Shown in pieces: positions 37-52,751 of a DNA stretch of 52,751 nt (positions within the stretch are counted from its first letter, which is position 1; each line of letters starts with the position of its first letter). The notes beneath the pieces were generated by a model. It was not told the DNA's origin. It saw only the letters and a program-made list of their open reading frames with translations, and did no database searches. Made by a program: the position numbers and the translations under genes. The DNA is from a virus, in IMG/VR virus record IMGVR_UViG_3300025892_000028, positions 1 through 52,751 of that record; one strand, 5' to 3'.

Positions 37-1641
37 CTAAGAGTCCCAATAAGTTTTTCGGAGGTATTCATAGTGGTTAGTAGAAATTTTTGCGAGATCA
101 TTCCAACGTTGTATACGTCGATCAGAATTTTCTAAGATATCGGGAAGCATAAGATCTAAGCGTTTAAGAGAAGGACCAGAACCATAGTAAGCATCTTTAG
201 TAATTTGCCAAGAGTTGAGAGACATATGATTCATTCCATTCATTATACAGGATGTTCCGTTATCTGACTTATCCTTACAGTCAAAGTAAGATTTTGTCAG
301 GACTTCGGAGATATAGTAATCGTGACTGTGAAGTGGTGGCATATTTCTCTCATATGGCAGGAGGTGAGTATTGTAGTCACGAGTTCTGCAATCCTTCCAA
401 TATTTTGTATCATCACGTTGAGTGAACATATAATGAGATGCAGTAAATTTTGCGAGACCATCAAAGTTTGATCTACAGAGGATATTGAACTCATTAACTT
501 GGAATTGATTATACCCATCATCATTCAGAATTTCTGTAAGGCGATCAATGGTTGTGATAGTAGTAAAGAGACCGGTAGATTCTAAGGGTTCAATGAAACC
601 CGCAGAGAGACCAACAGCGACACAGTTTTGAATCCAGAGATCTTTCTGAACACCGTTGCGAAAGTGAACATCATTATATGAGGATATTTCAGATGTCTTA
701 TAGCCTTGAGCTTTAAGGTGGGAGGTGAATTCTAACAGGGCGTCGTCTGATGTCGTGTAGTGATCACTATACACGTAGCCTGTGCCGATACGAGACCATG
801 TAGGAGTATTCCACACCCATCCATTGCCTAGAGCGGTACAATCTGTATAATTCTTCATTTGATTATGAATATCATTGTAAGGCACTCTTGCAGTCCATGC
901 TCGATTGTTAGGAATGATATCAGAATATGATATCCACTCAGACTTAAGTTTATTAAGTAGAAGAGATTTGAAACCGGTACAATCAATAAAGAGATCAGCA
1001 TGAACTAGATCGCCATTTTTTAATTGGACAGATTCAATTCCATCATCATTTAAATTGATATCAGTAACAGTAGAGGAGATATGTTGAACATTACGAGGAA
1101 TGCAGACATGATCACGAAGATAATCAGCGAACATGATGGCATCAAAATGAAATGCATATGCCCGTGAAAGATCTAGATTAGCAAACTCTCTATTTTTATT
1201 AAAACTAATTGTATTGTTATGACACAGTGCTACTGCAGGCCAGTAAGAATCTGCAAAATAAGAATTAGGTAATTCTGGATATTTCCACTTAAGATATTGG
1301 AAAGCATTAATACCTAATTCTTGAAATATTTGTTTGTCTGGAGATGATGAACCGAAGGGATAATGAAAACCCTTGTCATCTTTTTTATAAAACTGATTAA
1401 ATTTAATACTAAGTTTATATGTTCCATCACAATAACGAAATAGATCAGTAGGATCAATACCTGCTGAGTGTAACCAAAAGGTGAAATGTTCTAATGTACT
1501 TTCCCCGACACCAATTCTTGGAATGTCTGGACTTTCGATAACAGTAATTTTTTTATTAGGAAAGAATTGACTTAAAGATGATGCTGTCATCCACCCAGAT
1601 GATCCGCCACCTACAATTACAATACTATCCGAACAATTCAT
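37..1641 (-). CDS. prnA: Flavin-dependent tryptophan halogenase (PrnA-like)
   Basis: A 534-residue protein, the usual length for this family, which uses FADH2, O2 and halide to halogenate tryptophan or another indole. Seen in the sequence: the N-terminal FAD fold with GGGSSGWMTA at residues 11-20, VGEST at 45-49, a lysine (K76, in TYKLSIKF) at the place of the catalytic lysine of PrnA, DCTGF at 220-224, the signature WVWNTP at 275-280, GTGYVYS at 286-292 and EPLESTG at 351-357. The signature is normally WxWxIP; here isoleucine is threonine. Marine T4-like phages are known to carry such genes; the true substrate is unknown. It is complete and lies alone on the minus strand, divergent from the gene at 1716. 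A flavin reductase partner is not in the window. Confidence 0.93.
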   Translation of the reverse strand: MNCSDSIVIVGGGSSGWMTASSLSQFFPNKKITVIESPDIPRIGVGESTLEHFTFWLHSAGIDPTDLFRYCDGTYKLSIKFNQFYKKDDKGFHYPFGSSSPDKQIFQELGINAFQYLKWKYPELPNSYFADSYWPAVALCHNNTISFNKNREFANLDLSRAYAFHFDAIMFADYLRDHVCIPRNVQHISSTVTDINLNDDGIESVQLKNGDLVHADLFIDCTGFKSLLLNKLKSEWISYSDIIPNNRAWTARVPYNDIHNQMKNYTDCTALGNGWVWNTPTWSRIGTGYVYSDHYTTSDDALLEFTSHLKAQGYKTSEISSYNDVHFRNGVQKDLWIQNCVAVGLSAGFIEPLESTGLFTTITTIDRLTEILNDDGYNQFQVNEFNILCRSNFDGLAKFTASHYMFTQRDDTKYWKDCRTRDYNTHLLPYERNMPPLHSHDYYISEVLTKSYFDCKDKSDNGTSCIMNGMNHMSLNSWQITKDAYYGSGPSLKRLDLMLPDILENSDRRIQRWNDLAKISTNHYEYLRKTYWDS

Positions 1642-41864: not shown

Positions 41865-44800
41865 ATGGCAAAGAAATTAGTTACCTATTACTCATTTGAA
41901 CCTTCTACAAATACTGTAAAGATTCCTGGTAATATTAAAGCAGAAAAGCTTCTGCTTATCACAAACATTACTGACAATACACCGATTTACATTTTCTCAG
42001 ACCAATTTCTTGGTCTAGAATCTGCAACTTATAATCAAACTACAGAAGAAACTGAGTTTGTTCTGTCGTGTAATTGCGGCACAATGTCCTCCACGGATAA
42101 ATTGCAAATTTTCTATGACAAACCATATGTAAGTATTGAACCTTCCGAGACTTTCGTTGACGCTGTTTCAAAGTTCAGAGTTTCAAATCCAGAAAACCTG
42201 ATTGATACTGACTTTGAGTATGGTCCTCAGGCTTCTAAATGGGAAACTCTTCAGACGATTAATAATATTCCGTCTTTCTACTCATCTTCTTCTGATACTA
42301 CTATTTCGTTTATCACGAAAGTAGAATCATTTATTGATAGTGAGTTAATTACTGTTACTACTAGTTTTGATCATGGTCTTACTTCTGGTCTTCCGATTAC
42401 AGTAACTGGTCTTTCTTCCACTACCGCAGAAGGTACTTATTTAATCCAGTCAGTACCAACTACTACAACATTTACATTCAAGTGTAGAGCAGCACAACCT
42501 AGTAGTAGAGAACTCCAGGGTACTTACACCTCTATTATTCCTGGTAAATTCTTCCAAGGTTCTCAAATTGCTCTTGATGAATCACAAGGAATTGTCAGCG
42601 AACTTTACAATTTCCGAGTCAAAGTCTATTCTGTCTGGCAATTTACACTTCCTTCAGTTCCTGCTTCATGGGCAGTAAACGATTCTATTATTATTGATAG
42701 CGGTGGTGCGGGTTTAATTTCAAGAATTGACGGAAATGACGTTTACGTCTGGTTCAATTCTGTTGCTCAATCTAATCCTGTCGATGGTGATACACTCACA
42801 GCCAAAGAAACTGATGTTGTTGTAACAACAGTTGTAGGAGCAAGTAACAAGTATTTCATTAACTCATCTGAAGCTGCAGGAACTGAATATAATGATCAGC
42901 AATATGTTCAGCAAGAAACATTATCTCTTGCTAAAAAAGCGATCTATACTTTTGATGTATCAGATACATCAGTGAGCACCCACCCATTTGAATTCAGCGC
43001 AACTGATAATGGTACTCATGATGGTGGTACAGAATACACAACTTTTGTTTATAAGCATGGAACTCAAGGAACTGCTGGTGCTTATATAAGAATCTACTTC
43101 GATTATAATACCCCAGATAACTTATATTATTATTGCGGGTCTCACAGTGGAATGGGTGGTGATATCACAACAGCTGTTACTACTACATCTAAAGTATTCT
43201 TGACAACATCTGCAGAACATGGTTTTGCTGATAATACTAATTTCTACTTTGTTAATACAGTTTCACCTAAGATCTTTGACATTCAAGATGGGTCAGCAAT
43301 AGCAGCTGATGGTGAACCTGTCATTTCAGATTCCGATACATTCACTAATGTTATCACACCTGATCTTACTAAAACAGATCCATATAATATTGAATCTACA
43401 TATACATTAAGATTTGATGAAGCAGATATCAACTATGGTTCTGATAGAATTACCCTTCCCAATCACAGATTTGAGACTGGTTATTCATTACTATACTATC
43501 CAAATCCAGGAGACACTCCTATTGGTGGATTGAGCAGAATGTCTGTTTATTATGTCAAAAAAATTGATGATAATACCATTGAATTATATGATTCAATGAG
43601 AGTTCAGGCAAATTATCTGAAGAACCTCAGTCCAGGTGGTACATTTACCCATGGTCAGCATAATCTTGGACTGGTATACAATATCTACAGGGAGCAGAAA
43701 GGATATAATAACTGGTATACTTACTACTATCCTTACTATAATAACTTTGGTTCTACATATTCCGGTTATGATCTTAGAGATAATCAATATGGATTAGGAG
43801 GTCAGAACTGGGATAGAACGATCTTCTTCTCTCAAACCAGAAGTCATGCTGGTGGTAATAGTGGTAATGATAGATTTAGGTATTGCGATACTTGGTTCAG
43901 ATTCTTTAATACATTTTGGAAAACTTATGGTTACAATCATGTAACTCTTCCACTGGGAACATCCGCTCAGTTCCAGGGAGTTTATGATATGCTGACTGAT
44001 ACTTCACATAATGGTTATAGTAACAATAGTTACGCTAATGCATATTGGGTTGGTGCTTTAAATGGTAATGGTCCTGCTGGTGTAGGAAATCCTTACTATT
44101 GGACATCTAATTTCTATATTGACTATGTTCAGACTGGAAACTCACCATACATTAGAATGCGTGGTAATAACTGGTTCTTCTGGTATCATCAAAACGGTCG
44201 TGGATACAACCTAGATAGAAGATTTGGATCTCACACCAGTGATGGTGGGACCAACATGTATATCATGTTTGGTAAGCAAAATACTACCACAAATGATTCG
44301 ATCTATAAAGAAAATCACCTTGCAGAAACCGGACACACTTATACATTAGATACCACTAGTGGTGACATTCATTACTATACTGGCAGTAATGCTACTAGAA
44401 ACCAACTTGGAAATGGAACAAGTATCACCACAGAAAAAATTGATGCCAATAGAGTTCGTTTGAAGGATACAAGTAACAATGTATACAGATTAGCAGCTGT
44501 AACAGGTGCTCCTACACTTTCCGGTACATTTACATCACCATTCAAAAACTCAATTTTTGTTGCTGAACATCAATTCTCAAACAATGAGTATTTAAGATAT
44601 GATCAAGTTGGGTCTGCGCCAATTGCTGGACTGGTTTCTGGAAACTCCTACTATGTAAAAGTTGTTGATGCTAATAGATTCCAACTAGGATCTACAGTCG
44701 GTTTCTCAACTGAAATTGACTTCACTAATAAAGGAACTGGACTTCAGTCATTTGAAAATACAACCGCTGCTTTTGGTACAACTGATGGTTCATATACAAC

Positions 44801-47567
44801 TACTAAAGCAGTTAGTGATACCAAACTTTCCGTAACAATTCCATTCAAAATTCCTCCTGCATTGAAGGGATTTGACGCTAATGCAAATGTCACTATTGCT
44901 GATGATTATATCACAATTAATAATCACTATTTTGCTACTGGAACAAGGGTCATCTATGACGCTCAAGGAGGAACACCACTTGGCGGATTGACTGATGGTG
45001 CGGATTACTACATTATTGTTATTGATAACAATATCTTCAAACTAGCAACAACTTTGGCAGATTCTGTTGCAGGAAATGCCATTACCATTTCAACTAAACC
45101 TGGAAGTACTGAAACACAACAATTCATTAGTGCTAGTATGTCAGGTCAGGTTTCTGGCACTGGTACAGTAGAAGTTACATCTGGTAGTAGACTTGTTACT
45201 GGATCAAATGCTGCATTCCAGAGATTCTATAAGATCGGTGATAAACTGAGAATTGTTAATAATGCAACTACACCTGGTGTAATTGTTGAGAAGACAATTA
45301 CAGCAATTACTGATGATGATAATATGTTGGTTGATACAACATATGACTTCACCAACAGTGGTTTAAATTATCTAATTCCTTCTTACATCTATGTAAGACC
45401 TGATGGTTTCTATCTCCACAGACCATTTGACGGTGGCATGGAAATTGGTACTTCTAAGTCACCTAACTCTAGAATTTCTAGACAGACTCGTAAGTATTTC
45501 CGTTATCAGTCAGGTAAAGGTATTCAGACCTCATTCGCTATTAACTTCATTCCTCAAGTTCCTGTTCAAACAATTTCGTATACTCCAATTGGAACTACTA
45601 CGGTAGTAACAGGTGCTACGATGACAACGGGTGGATCAACATTGACGGTTAGTGATACATCAGCTCTAACAGTAGGACAAATTGCTTCTGGAGAAGCTGG
45701 TCTTGGAACCAAGTCCAGAATTGTTCAGATCATTGATGCTACAACACTAGAAATGAGTACATCTTGCACTGGAACTTTCACTGGTGGCACAATCACATTC
45801 GCTAGAGTCGAACTTGCGACCATCGTCTGCACAAAACCACACCAGTTTGAATCTGATGTCCAAGTTACGGTCAAGGGTTGTAGTGTTGAAGAATTTAATA
45901 TCACTGGAGATATTTACAGTATCGAAAATGATTTCTCATTCAGATATCTTCTCCCAGCACAACCCACATCTGATGTTGGTGGTGGATTCACTACCGTATC
46001 TATTGTTGCCTGGAGTGACTGTTCAATCCGTGCTGGTATGTTTGATGATCAGAATGGTTTCTACTTTGAATATGATGGTGCAACACTTAACTGTGTCAGA
46101 AGATCTTCTGTCCAACAACTTCCTGGAACTATCGCTGTAGCAAACGCCAGTCAAATTATTACTGGAACTAATACATCGTTTATCTCTCAAGTTGCCGTTG
46201 GTGAGCATCTCGTTATTCGCGGAATGACATATCAAGTTGTTAAGATTGCTAGCAATAGTCAACTTACAATCCAACCTTCTTATCGTGGTGTTAGTGCAAC
46301 TGACGTTATTTGCACCAAAACTATTAATACTGCAGTAGCGAAAGAAAATTGGAACATTGATAAAGCAGATGGTGATGGTCCATCTGGTTACATCTTGAAT
46401 CTTGATAGAATTCAAATGTGCTATATGGATTACTCCTGGTATGGTGCTGGTAAGATCCGTTTCGGATTTAAAGATCAAGATGGACATGTTAAGTATGTCC
46501 ATGAATTTAAGCACAACAACCGTTTGACGGAATCTTACTTCCGTTCTGGTAACCTACCTGCTCGTTATGAAGTAGTTAACTTCACATCACCGACATATGT
46601 CGGAACCTTGTTCCACTGGGGTACTTCAGTTATCATGGATGGTACAATGCAAGATGACGAAGCATATCTCTTCACAGCATCAGGCAACGTCCAGAAGTAT
46701 ACAAATGCTACTGCCGAAAGTTCTAGCACCAACGCCAATAGTTTCCTGAGATCATATTACCAAGGCACATGGTGGAACAGAACGTTCTATCTCATCATGC
46801 GTTTCCCATCTAGTGAAGCATCTAAGTTCTCAATTAACACATTGATCTATGAGAACACTGTTGCCAATGGTTACTTCTTAGAAGGTAGACCAATTGACTC
46901 TAAGTCTCGTGTCTCAGGTAGCTACTATGAAGCCGCAATTCAATATGTAGAAGGAACTGCAACTGTATTCCCATATAACTATACAAATCAGATTAATTCT
47001 ACCATTGGAAATCCTGCTGTTCCTTCAGGAACAACAATGAATATCGGTGCCCCTGCTGGTGTTGATAACATTATTCCTGATAACATCCCACTGATTTCAA
47101 TCAGACTGGCACCTTCAGTTGACTCTTCAATTACTGGTGCTCTCGGAGAACGTGAAATTATCAACAGAATGCAACTCAAACTTGACTCTGTTGGTATTCT
47201 AACTACACATGAGACGGAACTATCACTGATCTTGAACCCACAACTTTCAACAGATGAGTTCCAGAATGTTGACGAACCTTCGCTCTGCCAACTCGTTAAG
47301 CATGGTCCTAACGATGTTATCACAGGCGGTTCTAAGATTCTCTCATTCAGAGCATCTGGTTCTGGAGATGGTAATACATTCTCAACAGAATACGATCTTA
47401 CGAAACTGAGTGATTTGGGTAACTCAATTCTTGGTGGTGATGGCGTTTATCCAAATGGACCTGACCTACTTTGCGTCGTTGCTAACATTGTTGACTCAAC
47501 AGGTGTTAGTGTTACAAACCCATACTCAGTATCTGCTAGGGTTACCTGGCAGGAATCACAAGCATAA
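41865..47567 (+). CDS. Giant virion protein with cupredoxin-like domain (1900 residues)
   Basis: Ribosome binding site AAGGAA precedes the ATG. The N-terminal part (MAKKLVTYYSFEPSTNTVKIPG) starts a strand-rich region. Residues about 350-435 resemble a cupredoxin: HPFEF with H373, and YYYCGSHSGMGG with C424, H427 and M430, in the order of a type-1 copper site. Residues about 607-845 are an aromatic, asparagine-rich insertion (NNWYTYYYPYYNN, NWFFWYHQNGRGY) between two repeats of a YYVK(K/V)-D-NTIEL-type module. A GLGTKSRIVQI module lies near 1278. The C-terminal third (FRSGNLPARYEVVNF, LFHWGTSVIMDG near 1583) is conserved-looking in cyanophages. It is probably an adsorption structure; copper binding is inference. 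Confidence 0.82.
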   Translation: MAKKLVTYYSFEPSTNTVKIPGNIKAEKLLLITNITDNTPIYIFSDQFLGLESATYNQTTEETEFVLSCNCGTMSSTDKLQIFYDKPYVSIEPSETFVDAVSKFRVSNPENLIDTDFEYGPQASKWETLQTINNIPSFYSSSSDTTISFITKVESFIDSELITVTTSFDHGLTSGLPITVTGLSSTTAEGTYLIQSVPTTTTFTFKCRAAQPSSRELQGTYTSIIPGKFFQGSQIALDESQGIVSELYNFRVKVYSVWQFTLPSVPASWAVNDSIIIDSGGAGLISRIDGNDVYVWFNSVAQSNPVDGDTLTAKETDVVVTTVVGASNKYFINSSEAAGTEYNDQQYVQQETLSLAKKAIYTFDVSDTSVSTHPFEFSATDNGTHDGGTEYTTFVYKHGTQGTAGAYIRIYFDYNTPDNLYYYCGSHSGMGGDITTAVTTTSKVFLTTSAEHGFADNTNFYFVNTVSPKIFDIQDGSAIAADGEPVISDSDTFTNVITPDLTKTDPYNIESTYTLRFDEADINYGSDRITLPNHRFETGYSLLYYPNPGDTPIGGLSRMSVYYVKKIDDNTIELYDSMRVQANYLKNLSPGGTFTHGQHNLGLVYNIYREQKGYNNWYTYYYPYYNNFGSTYSGYDLRDNQYGLGGQNWDRTIFFSQTRSHAGGNSGNDRFRYCDTWFRFFNTFWKTYGYNHVTLPLGTSAQFQGVYDMLTDTSHNGYSNNSYANAYWVGALNGNGPAGVGNPYYWTSNFYIDYVQTGNSPYIRMRGNNWFFWYHQNGRGYNLDRRFGSHTSDGGTNMYIMFGKQNTTTNDSIYKENHLAETGHTYTLDTTSGDIHYYTGSNATRNQLGNGTSITTEKIDANRVRLKDTSNNVYRLAAVTGAPTLSGTFTSPFKNSIFVAEHQFSNNEYLRYDQVGSAPIAGLVSGNSYYVKVVDANRFQLGSTVGFSTEIDFTNKGTGLQSFENTTAAFGTTDGSYTTTKAVSDTKLSVTIPFKIPPALKGFDANANVTIADDYITINNHYFATGTRVIYDAQGGTPLGGLTDGADYYIIVIDNNIFKLATTLADSVAGNAITISTKPGSTETQQFISASMSGQVSGTGTVEVTSGSRLVTGSNAAFQRFYKIGDKLRIVNNATTPGVIVEKTITAITDDDNMLVDTTYDFTNSGLNYLIPSYIYVRPDGFYLHRPFDGGMEIGTSKSPNSRISRQTRKYFRYQSGKGIQTSFAINFIPQVPVQTISYTPIGTTTVVTGATMTTGGSTLTVSDTSALTVGQIASGEAGLGTKSRIVQIIDATTLEMSTSCTGTFTGGTITFARVELATIVCTKPHQFESDVQVTVKGCSVEEFNITGDIYSIENDFSFRYLLPAQPTSDVGGGFTTVSIVAWSDCSIRAGMFDDQNGFYFEYDGATLNCVRRSSVQQLPGTIAVANASQIITGTNTSFISQVAVGEHLVIRGMTYQVVKIASNSQLTIQPSYRGVSATDVICTKTINTAVAKENWNIDKADGDGPSGYILNLDRIQMCYMDYSWYGAGKIRFGFKDQDGHVKYVHEFKHNNRLTESYFRSGNLPARYEVVNFTSPTYVGTLFHWGTSVIMDGTMQDDEAYLFTASGNVQKYTNATAESSSTNANSFLRSYYQGTWWNRTFYLIMRFPSSEASKFSINTLIYENTVANGYFLEGRPIDSKSRVSGSYYEAAIQYVEGTATVFPYNYTNQINSTIGNPAVPSGTTMNIGAPAGVDNIIPDNIPLISIRLAPSVDSSITGALGEREIINRMQLKLDSVGILTTHETELSLILNPQLSTDEFQNVDEPSLCQLVKHGPNDVITGGSKILSFRASGSGDGNTFSTEYDLTKLSDLGNSILGGDGVYPNGPDLLCVVANIVDSTGVSVTNPYSVSARVTWQESQA

Positions 47568-47855: not shown

Positions 47856-47871
47856 TTTTAGAAAATAAACA

Positions 47872-47901
47872 AAAAAATGGAGGGTCACCCCTCCTTTTTT
47901 T
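47872..47901. terminator. Bidirectional terminator between converging transcripts
   Basis: A-run, GGAGGG (47879-47884), loop TCAC, CCCTCC (47889-47894), T-run to 47901. With A-tract on one side and T-tract on the other it can act on both strands, ending the 47586 gene on the plus strand and the 47900 gene on the minus strand. Confidence 0.9.
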
Positions 47902-48679
47902 ATGCAATTGCGCCAACCAAAGAATATCTAATAGATTTATATTCATCAACATCATACCCTATACTGTGATAGAAATCTCCTTTGTATATGGTAAGTGAAT
48001 TGAAATCAGCTGATACTGAATGATATCTTTCATAATGATCATCCGACTTAAATCTAATCCATTTACCTAGTTTTTTATCTTTCAGTAAAGAATTGTTATA
48101 AGCATCATCTACTTCATTTTCAGTAGGATATCTAGACATACGAGATCCTCTATAATTATAAGAATTATTTTTAAGTTTATACCTAAAAAAATCTGTATAA
48201 CTTTCTTCATTCTCAGTTAAAAATAAATTTAATGCAAATGAAAATGGATCCGTATGGGGGCGATAGTTTGAGCAATATGATGGCATTCCAGGATAACAGC
48301 AATTAGTATAATAATTCCATTTAATTCTTCTATACTCATACTTTACCATATGATAGTGTTTAAGAATATTAAAAAATGCTATCGATAAATTATTTCTGAA
48401 AAAGGTGTCTGGAACTGGTGCCTGAAAACCAGGAGCCATGCTACTACTATTGCTATCTTTAGTAGTTCCATCACTTATAGATTTGGTTTTATCTTCAGAA
48501 GGAAAATAGGATATAAAATTTCTTAGATCTATAGGATTTTTTAGGAAATTATGAACTTTAATATATTCAAGCTCTTCTACTTTAAAAGCTTGAATGTCCA
48601 TATCAGAATTTACTTCTGTTAATTCCTTAATTTCACCAGCACTATACCTAGGTATAACTTCATAATTAAAATCATTCAT
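47900..48679 (-). CDS. DUF6445-like 2OG-Fe(II)-oxygenase-type protein, intact triad
   Basis: 259 residues from the ATG at 48679, which overlaps the preceding stop by eight bases; an ATG at 48706 would add nine residues. Counting from 48679, the jelly-roll metal motif is H142-x-D144 (YRPHTDPFSFALNLFL), the distal histidine is H238 (YKGDFYHSIGYD) and R251 follows in SIRYSLVG, in the order used by 2OG-Fe(II) oxygenases. FFRYKL near 165 and the layout recall DUF6445 proteins, which in bacteria often sit beside tryptophan halogenases, as I know them. It is third in a minus-strand operon and ends in a bidirectional terminator. Activity and substrate are inference. Confidence 0.7.
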   Translation of the reverse strand: MNDFNYEVIPRYSAGEIKELTEVNSDMDIQAFKVEELEYIKVHNFLKNPIDLRNFISYFPSEDKTKSISDGTTKDSNSSSMAPGFQAPVPDTFFRNNLSIAFFNILKHYHMVKYEYRRIKWNYYTNCCYPGMPSYCSNYRPHTDPFSFALNLFLTENEESYTDFFRYKLKNNSYNYRGSRMSRYPTENEVDDAYNNSLLKDKKLGKWIRFKSDDHYERYHSVSADFNSLTIYKGDFYHSIGYDVDEYKSIRYSLVGAIA

Positions 48680-49574
48680 ATGAAAGAAATTCCATAGGCA
48701 TTTCATTGGTCATTTGATCGCCCATTACATTTCCGAAACCATCCTCTTCTTTAGCAGGAAGACTTAAACATCCTTCAAGATGATAGTGTTCAGAAACATT
48801 ATCGTAAACATTCTGATACCAACAGTTGCCTGGATAAAGAATTGCTCTATTGTATTTTGCTGGAACATGAATAAGTTTATTAAAATACTCATCACCATCC
48901 CAAGTTTCATATTGTTTAGTGGTATTTTGAGATACATACTTATAATTAAGTAAATCCATAATCTCTCGTTTAGATTCAGGATCTGTAACACCTTCAAATA
49001 ATTGAGTTACACCATAGTAAATTTGGTTTTCGTAAGAAAAATTATAGAATGACATACCACTCTTTCCGAGTGCTTCATCTTCAGTGCCCAAAAATACTTT
49101 CATATTCATATAAAAATTTCCAGGATGACATTTTTCTTTATTGGTATTAATTGTCATATTAGGATAATAATAATTTCCAGTCCAAAGACAACTGTTTATC
49201 ATCCTTTCAAATTCTTGTGTAGTTGGTTGATTATTACTATCATTTGGAATATAATCCCATTCCTTCAGAACGCCAATTGCATTCATTGTCAATTGCTGAG
49301 TAACATTTGGATGAAATAATTGGTTCTCACCCATAGGTTTTTGGAATTCATATTTTTGATCGCTTTCTCTTCTTGATTCTTCTTCTAAAGTTTTTTGTCC
49401 TGTATCAAATGGAACAGATAATAAATTATTTAAAGAACTTTCAGGATCAGAAAAGAAATCATCAATTACCAAGCAGCTAAATTCAGATACTCTTTTTTCC
49501 TGAACTATAGCTTTATCGGTCATTTCAAATCCGAAGTTATTAATATATTTAATTTTTGATTGAATATTTTTCAT
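48672..49574 (-). CDS. DUF6445-like protein lacking the metal triad
   Basis: 300 residues from ATG at 49574; the longer TTG start at 49580 overlaps the preceding stop and is less likely. FSCLVIDDFFSDPESSLNNLL near residue 32 resembles the N-terminal start of 2OG-oxygenase-type domains. The segment CHPGNFYMNMKVFLG (149-163) aligns with the HxD region of the neighbour but has H-P-G, and LYPGNCWYQNVYD (247-259) aligns with its distal histidine region but has glutamine. So both proteins share a plan and this one has lost two ligands. It may be a regulatory partner of the intact protein. It follows the 149-residue gene by two bases. Confidence 0.68.
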   Translation of the reverse strand: MKNIQSKIKYINNFGFEMTDKAIVQEKRVSEFSCLVIDDFFSDPESSLNNLLSVPFDTGQKTLEEESRRESDQKYEFQKPMGENQLFHPNVTQQLTMNAIGVLKEWDYIPNDSNNQPTTQEFERMINSCLWTGNYYYPNMTINTNKEKCHPGNFYMNMKVFLGTEDEALGKSGMSFYNFSYENQIYYGVTQLFEGVTDPESKREIMDLLNYKYVSQNTTKQYETWDGDEYFNKLIHVPAKYNRAILYPGNCWYQNVYDNVSEHYHLEGCLSLPAKEEDGFGNVMGDQMTNEMPMEFLSYE

Positions 49575-49576
49575 AA

Positions 49577-50026
49577 TCAATGCTCCACCGTAGGTGTTCC
49601 GCTAGCAATATCATTCCAAATTTCTTCTTGTTTTTGATCTATTTCATCAGAATGAACTAAAAATGAATTATCAAGTTCAATACTTTTAACGTATTCCTGA
49701 ACCCATTTACTCAGAATAGACATATATGCATTAGTTACATCAGTATGAGGTTCGTAAATGACATCAATAAAATCGTGCGTAACATTAAAACTTCTTTCAT
49801 TTGATAATGGAAATAGTCTACCAAATTGAAGTTCACCTTGTTGAGTAGGAAGGTCTGTAATATTCATATCCTCATCAACATTAGACAAAATATTATTAAC
49901 ACATTCGATAGTAAATGGATCTGAAATTACATAACCCAAACTTTTATTTTCTTCTTTGTCCAAAGCTTCTTTAACATCACAAACAATTGTTGTTTGATTT
50001 TTGAGTAGGCAAAGTTTAACTGTCAT
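49577..50026 (-). CDS. 149-residue phage protein, Sm-like N-terminal part
   Basis: Starts MTVKLCLLKNQTTIVCDVKE. The N-terminal strands, then GYVISDPFTIECV, and after a gap LQFGRLFPLSNERSFNV and DVIYEPHTDVTNAYM match a small protein common in marine T4-like phages as I remember it (KLCLLK..., PLS..., EP...), with an Sm-like barrel layout. RNA binding has been suggested for such folds but is not shown. The C-terminal 40 residues are an added acidic helix. First gene of the minus operon, directly behind a sigma70 promoter. Confidence 0.7.
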   Translation of the reverse strand: MTVKLCLLKNQTTIVCDVKEALDKEENKSLGYVISDPFTIECVNNILSNVDEDMNITDLPTQQGELQFGRLFPLSNERSFNVTHDFIDVIYEPHTDVTNAYMSILSKWVQEYVKSIELDNSFLVHSDEIDQKQEEIWNDIASGTPTVEH

Positions 50027-50048: not shown

Positions 50049-50077
50049 ATTATAATACAGAATTTAGTTCACGTCAA
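50049..50077 (-). promoter_or_regulatory. Sigma70-type promoter of the minus-strand operon
   Basis: Read on the minus strand: TTGACG (50077-50072), 17-base spacer, TATAAT (50054-50049), 23 bases before the ATG at 50026. Confidence 0.8.
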
Positions 50078-50090: not shown

Positions 50091-50121
50091 TTCAGTTCAC
50101 CAATATTTATAGCACAAGAAA

Positions 50122-50442
50122 ATGAATACCGTTTCGGATATCCCCCTATATGAAATTGTTCAGGAAATTGAAAAAGTTCATGGTTCAGAAAAACATATGG
50201 TAATTGAGATCATTACCAATGATGAAGCAACTGAAGATAAACCTCATCCATTAATTAGAGAGGAAGACATCTACAGACCTGATGGGTGGCAATTAAATGA
50301 TGGAATTTGGTTCTGGTGTGAATTTGAAAATCAAGTTGCTGTATTTGATAATGTTACTGCGGTAAAACATTGGTTTATTGAAGATTGTAATAGAGAAAAT
50401 AAAGAAGATAATACTGATATCAAAATAAAGCAGGACTTATAA
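50122..50442 (+). CDS. 106-residue hypothetical protein
   Basis: Starts MNTVSDIPLYEIVQEIEKVHG. It is acidic, with a helical first half and an aromatic core (DGWQLNDGIWFWCEFENQVAVF at residues 54-75; AVKHWFIEDC follows), ending in a charged tail. No family recognised. Its stop is followed at once by the ATG of the oxygenase at 50443, so the two are probably made together. Confidence 0.7.
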   Translation: MNTVSDIPLYEIVQEIEKVHGSEKHMVIEIITNDEATEDKPHPLIREEDIYRPDGWQLNDGIWFWCEFENQVAVFDNVTAVKHWFIEDCNRENKEDNTDIKIKQDL

Positions 50443-51036
50443 ATGAAACTAAATAAATTATTTCCTAAAATTGTTGCTGAGTTTGATGGTGTATGTGTAG
50501 ATAATATTCCAGCAATGATAAAAGAGGTTGAAGAATTATCGTCATATGGCACTAAGAGAAATAGTACATTGAATGTAGAATCTTCTCATAGATCTATTCA
50601 AACAATTCATAGACTGCCACCTTTCAAGCCATTAGCAAAAGAAGCACTTTCAAATGCAACTAAATTTTTAAGTGAGTATGGATATACCAATCAGCTGCCA
50701 CATCTCTATATTAGTAATATGTGGTTTAATATTTCAGAAAAAGGTGATTATTTATTTCCCCATACTCATCCCGGATCATTATTATCTGGAGCATATTATC
50801 TAGATACAGATGAGTCCCACTACATTTATTTCTATGATATGTATAGAAATCTTACCGAATCCCCCAGTTTTCCTAATGATTTAAATACAGACACATACCC
50901 TATGCCATGTACTCAAGGAATGATGTATCTATTTCATTCAGATTTTGTTCATGCAGTTCCTAGACAAGAAGCAGATGCGAGAAAAATTGTCATTTCATTC
51001 AACTTAAGTTTTGAAAATTTGAAATCCATGCATTAA
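50443..51036 (+). CDS. 2OG-Fe(II) oxygenase (2OG-FeII_Oxy_5/TIGR02466 type)
   Basis: 197 residues, the usual size for the family. The core reads MWFNISEKGDYLFPHTHPGS at residues 93-112, then GAYYLDTDE, and LFHSDFVHAVPRQ (163-175) with RKIVISFNLSF (180-190). H107 and/or H109, H170 and R180 are the expected iron and 2-oxoglutarate ligands. Such proteins are widespread in cyanophages and may hydroxylate or demethylate phage or host substrates; the substrate is unknown. It is a different subfamily from the minus-strand pair nearby. Its end is followed by a terminator with an embedded late promoter. Confidence 0.9.
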   Translation: MKLNKLFPKIVAEFDGVCVDNIPAMIKEVEELSSYGTKRNSTLNVESSHRSIQTIHRLPPFKPLAKEALSNATKFLSEYGYTNQLPHLYISNMWFNISEKGDYLFPHTHPGSLLSGAYYLDTDESHYIYFYDMYRNLTESPSFPNDLNTDTYPMPCTQGMMYLFHSDFVHAVPRQEADARKIVISFNLSFENLKSMH

Positions 51037-51076: not shown

Positions 51077-51871
51077 ATGGCAAAACCCTCGACACGCCAG
51101 GAGCTAATTGATTATTGTCTGAGGAAATTAGGATTCCCAGTACTAGAGATTAATGTGGATGATGATCAAATTGAAGATCTTGTAGATGATGCAATTCAGT
51201 TCTTTCAAGAGCGTCATTTTGATGGAAGCGTCAAAACATTTTTAAAATTAGAAGTAACTGACCAGATGATTACCGATGCGAAAGTGAACGGTGCCATTGC
51301 TGGTTCAGATTTTGTAGAGCAAAATAATTTTGTAACTGTCCCAGAACATGTTCTGGGAGTAACTAATGTATATGCTTATGATAATAGTTCATCAGCAGTA
51401 TCAGGAAATATCTTCAGTATGAAGTATCAATTATTCCTGAATGATTTCTATAACTTCGGTTCTATGGAAATTTTAAATTACTATATGGTAAAGCAATATC
51501 TAGAAACAGTTGATTTTGTAATTGGTAATTTTAAACCGATTAGATTTAATAAGAGAGAAAATAAACTATACATTGATACTGATTGGGATCAGTTAAATGG
51601 TGGTGATATGATTTTGATTGAATGTTATAGGATGATAGATCCATCAACTGCTACTGAAGTTTATAATGATGTGTGGATGAAACGTTATCTTACTGCTCTT
51701 ATTAAAAGACAGTGGGGGCAAAACCTCATCAAATTTAAGAACGTTCAACTTCCTGGTGGAACAACTCTGAATGGTAGAGAGTTCTACGAAGATGCACAAG
51801 CAGAAATTGATACTATTCTTGGTGAATTTAAGTTATCAGCAGAGTTACCACCACTAGACATGATCGGATAA
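51077..51871 (+). CDS. 13: Neck protein gp13
   Basis: 264 residues against 309 in T4 gp13. Shared features: the N-terminal LRKLGFPVLEINVDDDQIED and FFQERHFDG correspond to [21 protein letters not shown] and YGEYHFDG; the C-terminal LPGGTTLNGREFYEDAQAEID corresponds to [21 protein letters not shown] and the end to DPPFGILVG. gp13 with gp14 closes the filled head and joins it to the tail. It has its own late promoter and is followed after one base by gp14, as in T4. Confidence 0.95.
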   Translation: MAKPSTRQELIDYCLRKLGFPVLEINVDDDQIEDLVDDAIQFFQERHFDGSVKTFLKLEVTDQMITDAKVNGAIAGSDFVEQNNFVTVPEHVLGVTNVYAYDNSSSAVSGNIFSMKYQLFLNDFYNFGSMEILNYYMVKQYLETVDFVIGNFKPIRFNKRENKLYIDTDWDQLNGGDMILIECYRMIDPSTATEVYNDVWMKRYLTALIKRQWGQNLIKFKNVQLPGGTTLNGREFYEDAQAEIDTILGEFKLSAELPPLDMIG

Positions 51872-51872
51872 A

Positions 51873-52751
51873 ATGACTAGAAATTTATATTTTACACAAG
51901 GAACTAAGGGTGAACAGAACCTAGTACAGGATCTGGTTGACGAACAGATCAAAATGTATGGTCTGGAATGTTATTACATTCCTCGTCAGATCTACGAAGA
52001 TAAGTTGTGGAATGATATCTATTATTCTCAGTTTAAAGATAGTTATCTTATTGAGATGTATCTGGAAAACTTTCAAAATTTTGGTGGCAATGGTGACATG
52101 CTATCAAAGTTTGGTCTTCGCGTAACTGATGAAGTAACACTTACACTTTCTAGGAGAAGATGGAGAGATTTTGTAGATGTCTCTACTAATAAAATTGTAT
52201 CTGGAAGACCTAATGATGGAGATTTAGTATGGTTTCCTTTGAATGAAACTGTATTTGAAATCAAGTATGTAGAAAATCAAAAACCATTCTACCAGTTAGG
52301 AAGTCTATATACATATACGTTGACGTGTGAAGTCTTTGAATACGGCGATAGTATCTTTGATACTGGCGTTACTTCTATTGATAACACTGAAATGGAATCT
52401 GGAGTATTCCCAATTCTATTGAACCTCAATGGAAGTGGATACTTTACTGAAGATGAAAAAGTTTCTGGAACTAGATTTGATGCTGCTGCAACTGCAGTCG
52501 CTGATGCATCTGGAGTTCTTGGTGCGATTACTATCACATCAGCTGGTCAGAAATATGAAACTGCTCCAAATGCATTTTGGTATTCTCCTACAGGAACATT
52601 CATCACTTCATCTACAACTGCGATCACCAATGGTGTAGTCAGTGCTGTCAATGCTCCTACAGGATCATACATATATGGAGATGTTGTTTATGATGCCAAC
52701 GATCAAATTGTAAGTATCACTGGATGGAATCCAATTATTAAAATTGATTCA
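51873..52751 (+). CDS. 14: Neck protein gp14, 3' end outside the window
   Basis: Open for 293 codons to the right edge from ATG at 51873. T4 gp14 (256 residues) matches are MYGLECYYIPRQ near residue 28 (MRGVECYYVPRE in T4), FGLRVTDEVTLTL near 80, and PNDGDLVWFPLNETVFEI with PFYQLG near 111-140. The protein is longer than T4's: from about residue 185 it carries a GSGYFTEDEKVSGT segment and a TITSAGQKYETAP module like those in gp7 and gp8. gp14 acts in the head-to-tail connector. Coupled to gp13 by a one-base gap. Confidence 0.93.
   Translation, partial: MTRNLYFTQGTKGEQNLVQDLVDEQIKMYGLECYYIPRQIYEDKLWNDIYYSQFKDSYLIEMYLENFQNFGGNGDMLSKFGLRVTDEVTLTLSRRRWRDFVDVSTNKIVSGRPNDGDLVWFPLNETVFEIKYVENQKPFYQLGSLYTYTLTCEVFEYGDSIFDTGVTSIDNTEMESGVFPILLNLNGSGYFTEDEKVSGTRFDAAATAVADASGVLGAITITSAGQKYETAPNAFWYSPTGTFITSSTTAITNGVVSAVNAPTGSYIYGDVVYDANDQIVSITGWNPIIKIDS

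Follow-up and report, generated by a model that had tools for sequence, protein, structure and literature searches.

A predicted 2-oxoglutarate oxygenase and its degenerate paralogue form a conserved gene pair in uncultured T4-like phages

Introduction

Marine T4-like phages carry many 2-oxoglutarate (2OG) oxygenases, the substrates of which are unknown. The ribosomal prolyl hydroxylases OGFOD1, Tpa1 and Ofd1 combine, as is predicted for the phage gene pair described here, one catalytic DSBH with one DSBH free of a metal site, and for the second domain of OGFOD1 a role in binding of the substrate or of a partner has been proposed (PMC4396695). In OGFOD1 and Tpa1 the two domains are parts of one chain, whereas in the phages they are two separate adjacent frames in all 31 contigs, and with an identity of about 10% the resemblance is a likeness of plan and not membership. 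Proteins of the DUF6445 family (PF20043) are encoded beside tryptophan halogenases in Proteobacteria. They belong to the same family as the two phage proteins and have the HxD...H...R signature in common with one of them, P2, but their halogenase is adjacent, while that of the phages is distant from the pair or absent, and the phage proteins pass the family cut-off only just. To the same family belong the phrog_1644 proteins of Kyanoviridae (Syn9 gp46, S-RIM14, S-SSM7), and those that were aligned have an intact triad; unlike the pair, their genes are situated in varied places and no degenerate partner was recognised. The viral halogenase VirX1, finally, is the nearest solved relative of a halogenase which is encoded in the analyzed DNA outside the operon of the pair. 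In the literature that was searched we found no mention of DUF6445, and nothing on a halogenase-SapC-TonB-cupin cluster, on cyanophage prolyl hydroxylases or on phage pseudo-oxygenase heterodimers.

Results and Discussion

The window, i.e. the whole 52,751-nt stretch of an IMG/VR virus record that was analyzed, carries at its distal end T4-like phage genes for the baseplate, the tail fibres and the neck. Three minus-strand genes, in the operon order phrog_431 gene, P3 and P2, are flanked there by the gene of a large tail protein and by gp13/gp14 (Table 1). An earlier note on this DNA had described P2 and P3 as two adjacent minus-strand genes of a shared plan, and the coordinates hold. P3 is counted from its ATG, with an in-frame TTG at 49580, and the likely start of P2 is at 48679, since its relatives begin at an ATG equivalent to that position. 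Scans of viral contigs yielded 31 further contigs with P2 relatives, which together with the window makes 32 pair-bearing records. A P3 relative directly precedes P2 in 31 of the 31 contigs having both sides, the window included, several of these contigs being near-identical, so that independent lineages are fewer than 31. Around the cassette the genes keep a constant order: nearly all relatives that were read have the phrog_431 gene ahead of the pair, and the tail protein is the neighbor also in those relatives whose contigs extend to it. The neighboring 2OG-FeII_Oxy_5 gene comes and goes among relatives. In relatives without it, the small gene at 50122-50442 of the window is longer, 128-153 aa compared to about 100 (equivalents in loci L006, L007, L009, L013 and L015). 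It is plausible that the host is a cyanobacterium. Two Photo_RC (psbA/psbD-type) genes were found on one pair-bearing contig of 177.7 kb, and none in the window. Syn9 (gp213, L054 7914-8570) and the same 177.7 kb contig (record of L015, 51202-51633) each have a separate DUF6445 gene close to psbA/psbD-type genes.

Table 1. Features of the locus and related frames; positions refer to the window unless an accession is given.
Feature	Position	Strand	Description
Flavin-dependent halogenase	37-1641	-	PF04820, VirX1-like, about 46 kb from the pair
Structural/tail protein	41865-47567	+	1900 aa virion protein, converges on the P2/P3 pair
Putative terminator	47871-47894	-	GGAGGGGTGACCCTCC and T-run, directly 3' of the P2 stop
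P2	47900-48706	-	DUF6445/phrog_1644, intact HxD...H...R; predicted active Fe(II)/2OG oxygenase, 268 aa
P3	48672-49574	-	P2 paralogue, same predicted fold; predicted non-catalytic partner
phrog_431 gene	49577-50026	-	149 aa, E 4e-16; first in the operon
Putative sigma-70-like promoter	50049-50077	-	TTGACG-N17-TATAAT, 51 nt before the first ATG of the operon
T4-type late promoter motif	50104-50112	-	CTATAAATA; motif from PMC2984593
2OG-FeII_Oxy_5 oxygenase	50443-51036	+	phrog_81, ordinary type, immediately before gp13/gp14
gp13/gp14	51077-52751	+	follows the 2OG-FeII_Oxy_5 gene
Short halogenase-like frame	KX349305.1 21026-21988
Short halogenase-like frame	GU071098.1 168252-169244
Short halogenase-like frame	NC_028663.1 183737-184705

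P2 and P3 align over their length in BLASTP (2e-5, 20% identity), and the profile-profile comparison by hhalign gives 99.5% with an E of 1.9e-22. In Pfam profile searches both pass the DUF6445 cut-off of 24 bits, P2 with 25.4 and P3 with 26.5, although a P3 fragment from a six-frame search reached only 21.1; against phrog_1644 the E values are 6e-16 and 8e-10, respectively. At the level of sequence this confirms that P2 and P3 are paralogues of DUF6445/phrog_1644. Sequence profile searches of the PDB with the two families gave nothing useful, therefore the structural assignment was carried by comparison of folds. The AlphaFold2 models are confident (pLDDT 89 and pTM 0.86 for P2, 84 and 0.83 for P3), and according to them both proteins would have prolyl-hydroxylase-like 2OG oxygenase (DSBH) folds. 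The solved folds nearest to P2 in Foldseek are the P4H of P. putida (4j25, E 1.8e-5), a Dictyostelium PHD, OGFOD1, Tpa1 and PHD2, all its PDB matches up to E 0.001 being of the 2OG oxygenase type, and the one nearest to P3 is OGFOD1 (1.9e-5). The TM-scores obtained with solved structures are low, between 0.35 and 0.5, and these matches can therefore suggest the class of substrate only weakly. Compared with predicted viral proteins, P3 reaches a best TM of 0.81 on the target, and cyanophage proteins, for example one of S-SSM7, are among its top matches. Pfam and the models thus agree with the earlier note, which had called both proteins DUF6445-like from the letters alone and had read them as an active/pseudo-oxygenase pair.

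The two paralogues differ in the active site. The HxD, distal His and Arg previously read in P2 are H151-T-D153, H247 and R260. P2 keeps HxD...H...R throughout the cassette relatives (22 of 22). H151, D153, T171, H247 and R260 stand in all cassette P2 sequences of the alignment, and the same residues occur in the DUF6445 sequences with which they were compared, 10 from cultured phages and 7 from bacteria. With a DSBH fold, a metal triad and a 2OG-binding Arg, P2 has what defines the Fe(II)/2OG oxygenase superfamily, and it is predicted to be a working enzyme of this type. P3 of the window does read H-P-G at the HxD position, as had been reported, but the Gln said to replace the distal His stands one residue further on, the column itself being occupied by Tyr. 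The His of H-P-G is absent from most P3 relatives, the distal His column holds His in one of 16 (a sequence without HxD), and the triad as a set occurs in no P3 sequence. HxD is present in all 25 aligned sequences of P2 and other DUF6445 proteins and in none of 23 P3, and triad loss is thus a property of the P3 clade and not a chance event. P3 fails this DUF6445 signature, and its columns for metal and 2OG binding are lost or variable, with the H, D, T, H and Ser gone; by sequence it is a degenerate paralogue and not an active member of the family. All 16 P3 nevertheless keep the structural Gly93 and Asn236 columns. P3 has invariant residues of its own (G84, Q87, M142, P153, N244, R245, Y266), and its reading frame is open in all 31 contigs. 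Its dN/dS of about 0.2 equals that of P2 (0.19-0.22 for both), is similar to that of the tail protein and lies above that of gp13. P3 is a maintained protein, since selection on it is as strong as on P2.

The arrangement is old, because relatives of P2 can share as little as about 33% identity, and those of P3 about 20%. The trees of the two proteins are congruent (distance correlation 0.90, 16 phages). An exclusive sister clade of P2 and P3 was not recovered in them, therefore the duplication need not have arisen inside this phage clade. Protein searches found no P3 orthologue among the cultured phages examined, and in 21 cultured or named phage records the P3 profile gave no orthologue either, its matches being short and weak and several of them to ordinary oxygenases. 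No such pair was encountered in the named phages searched. The idea of an active and a pseudo-oxygenase of DUF6445 type was well founded: on the evidence of alignments and models the pair is real and conserved across a group of uncultured viruses.

The operon probably has its own signals, the promoters being called as matches to a consensus. A TTGACA-like/TATAAT-like pair with a spacing of 16-17 nt stands 50-53 nt before the ATG in 23 of 23 loci, with scores of 10-12 out of 12; in random 140-nt stretches of the window a score of at least 10 is reached in 5.5% and of at least 11 in 0.5%. The window has in addition a T4-type late motif, TATAAATA, of which this is the sole copy on its minus strand, and this motif lies upstream of the operon in 7 of 7 loci of the window's close clade. 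A G+C hairpin with a T-run, equivalent to that of the window, follows P2 in 23 of 23 loci. For cyanomyoviruses it is known that sigma-70-like promoters can precede the homologues of early genes and NATAAATA the late genes, and that some genes have both (PMC2984593). Early or middle expression of the operon is likely from these motifs. Late-only expression, suggested by the exact CTATAAATA, was considered and dropped, the sigma-70-like promoter at a fixed distance being general.

Our preferred reading, to which we give even odds (about 0.5), is that of a protein hydroxylase, P2, with a non-catalytic partner, P3. P2 and P3 would be old duplicates kept as one functional unit. P2 would bind Fe(II) and 2-oxoglutarate and hydroxylate a polypeptide side chain in the manner of proline hydroxylases; P3, having lost the cofactor sites, would pair with it and provide docking of the substrate or a partner as well as stability, a role modeled on the non-catalytic C-terminal DSBH domain of OGFOD1/Tpa1. 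The phrog_431 protein would be made together with both from the sigma-70-like promoter, with the late motif added in the window's clade, and production of the pair would probably begin in the early or middle phase of infection. The substrate may be a protein of the host or the neighboring tail protein, and the halogenase would not be needed.

A shared operon and co-inheritance would equally fit two separate functions. P3 could act independently of P2, as an oxygenase-fold binding protein or an inhibitor directed at a host protein, nucleic acid or 2OG signalling. This is in accordance with its larger divergence (mean distance 0.69, compared to 0.56 for P2) and its own invariant residues, and the sigma-70-like promoter would suit an early takeover of the host. 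In all phages seen, P3 stands next to P2 in a fixed order and the two genes have a common history; this argues against independence, which we regard as unlikely.

The earlier note had also proposed that the pair acts with the halogenase of the window on one substrate, for example a halogenated indole or peptide, hydroxylation and halogenation being two steps of a pathway. The halogenase, there called PrnA-like, is indeed 46 kb away on the same strand and belongs to PF04820 (E 2e-101, 340 bits, profile 2-407 of 458, above the curated cut-off), but its nearest solved structure is VirX1 (E 2e-99); its identity to halogenases of named phages is at most 48% over three quarters of the length, or 40% over nearly all of it. 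The known tendency of bacterial DUF6445 to go with tryptophan halogenases was borne out, and it favors a shared substrate: 17 of 35 halogenase-bearing genomes have DUF6445, and in a halogenase-selected sample 15 of 20 DUF6445 loci (L163-L182) are accompanied by a halogenase at no more than 8 kb, in most cases as the direct neighbor. The same can be said of phages in which only a few kb separate phrog_1644-type genes from halogenases (Syn9, S-RIM44) or DUF6445 is about 5 kb away from one (Syn9, S-CREM1). Halogenases of close relatives (97%) come from the same metagenomes as the pair contigs, so the species group of the window probably carries both, and in the two records holding both, the strand is the same and about 46-48 kb separate them. 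These two, the window and G028, are however the only ones among the 32 pair-bearing records, most of which are short fragments, and the halogenase is absent from pair-bearing contigs as long as 177.7, 132.5 and 133.0 kb. The expected co-occurrence was not found in 21 selected cultured or named phages either, a halogenase being present in 6 of 10 records with DUF6445 over the cut-off and in 8 of the 11 others. The pair thus shares neither an operon nor, regularly, a genome with the halogenase, from which its own promoter and terminator set it apart, and a halogenase-linked biosynthetic module found no support. We find a shared substrate decidedly improbable and an obligatory partnership unlikely; the halogenase probably has a separate function. 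Optional cooperation is possible because of the neighborhoods in Syn9 and S-RIM44.

Many cyanophage halogenases are clustered beside tail-fibre genes with several 2OG and JmjC oxygenases (Syn9, L055 1821-13215; L186, L188, L189, L190, L191, L192), an arrangement suggesting that virion or tail-fibre proteins are modified jointly. Since such clusters of named phages include phrog_1644 members in some cases, protein modification could be a common theme without a pathway linking P2, P3 and the halogenase. S-RIM14, S-SSM7 and P-TIM40 have short second halogenase-like frames of 367-391 aa which are without the middle of the family profile (Table 1).

It is very improbable that P2 and P3 are structural proteins of the virion with the oxygenase fold as a mere scaffold. 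PHROGs labels phrog_1644 'minor coat protein' and the pair sits beside tail and neck genes; against this, P2 and all other aligned family members have the full catalytic set, and the pair has a sigma-70-like promoter and is encoded on the other strand than the structural genes. The label itself appears doubtful, because the aligned phrog_1644 members otherwise keep the full 2OG oxygenase signature. Decay of P3 as a pseudogene after duplication, to which the loss of all its catalytic residues could be attributed, is rejected by the dN/dS, the open full-length frame conserved across deep divergence and the confident fold.

Conclusions

Inheritance of the pair as a unit across this group of uncultured viruses points to the dead twin as a partner of the live enzyme. 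Tentatively, and with more doubt than for the partnership as such, we put forward that the dedicated pseudo-oxygenase may be an essential subunit of a phage hydroxylase acting early on a host protein, a split OGFOD1-type enzyme of an uncultured T4-like marine clade. A strictly co-inherited active/pseudo pair offers a testable handle on phage 2OG oxygenases, as P3 could be used as a bait for the substrate.
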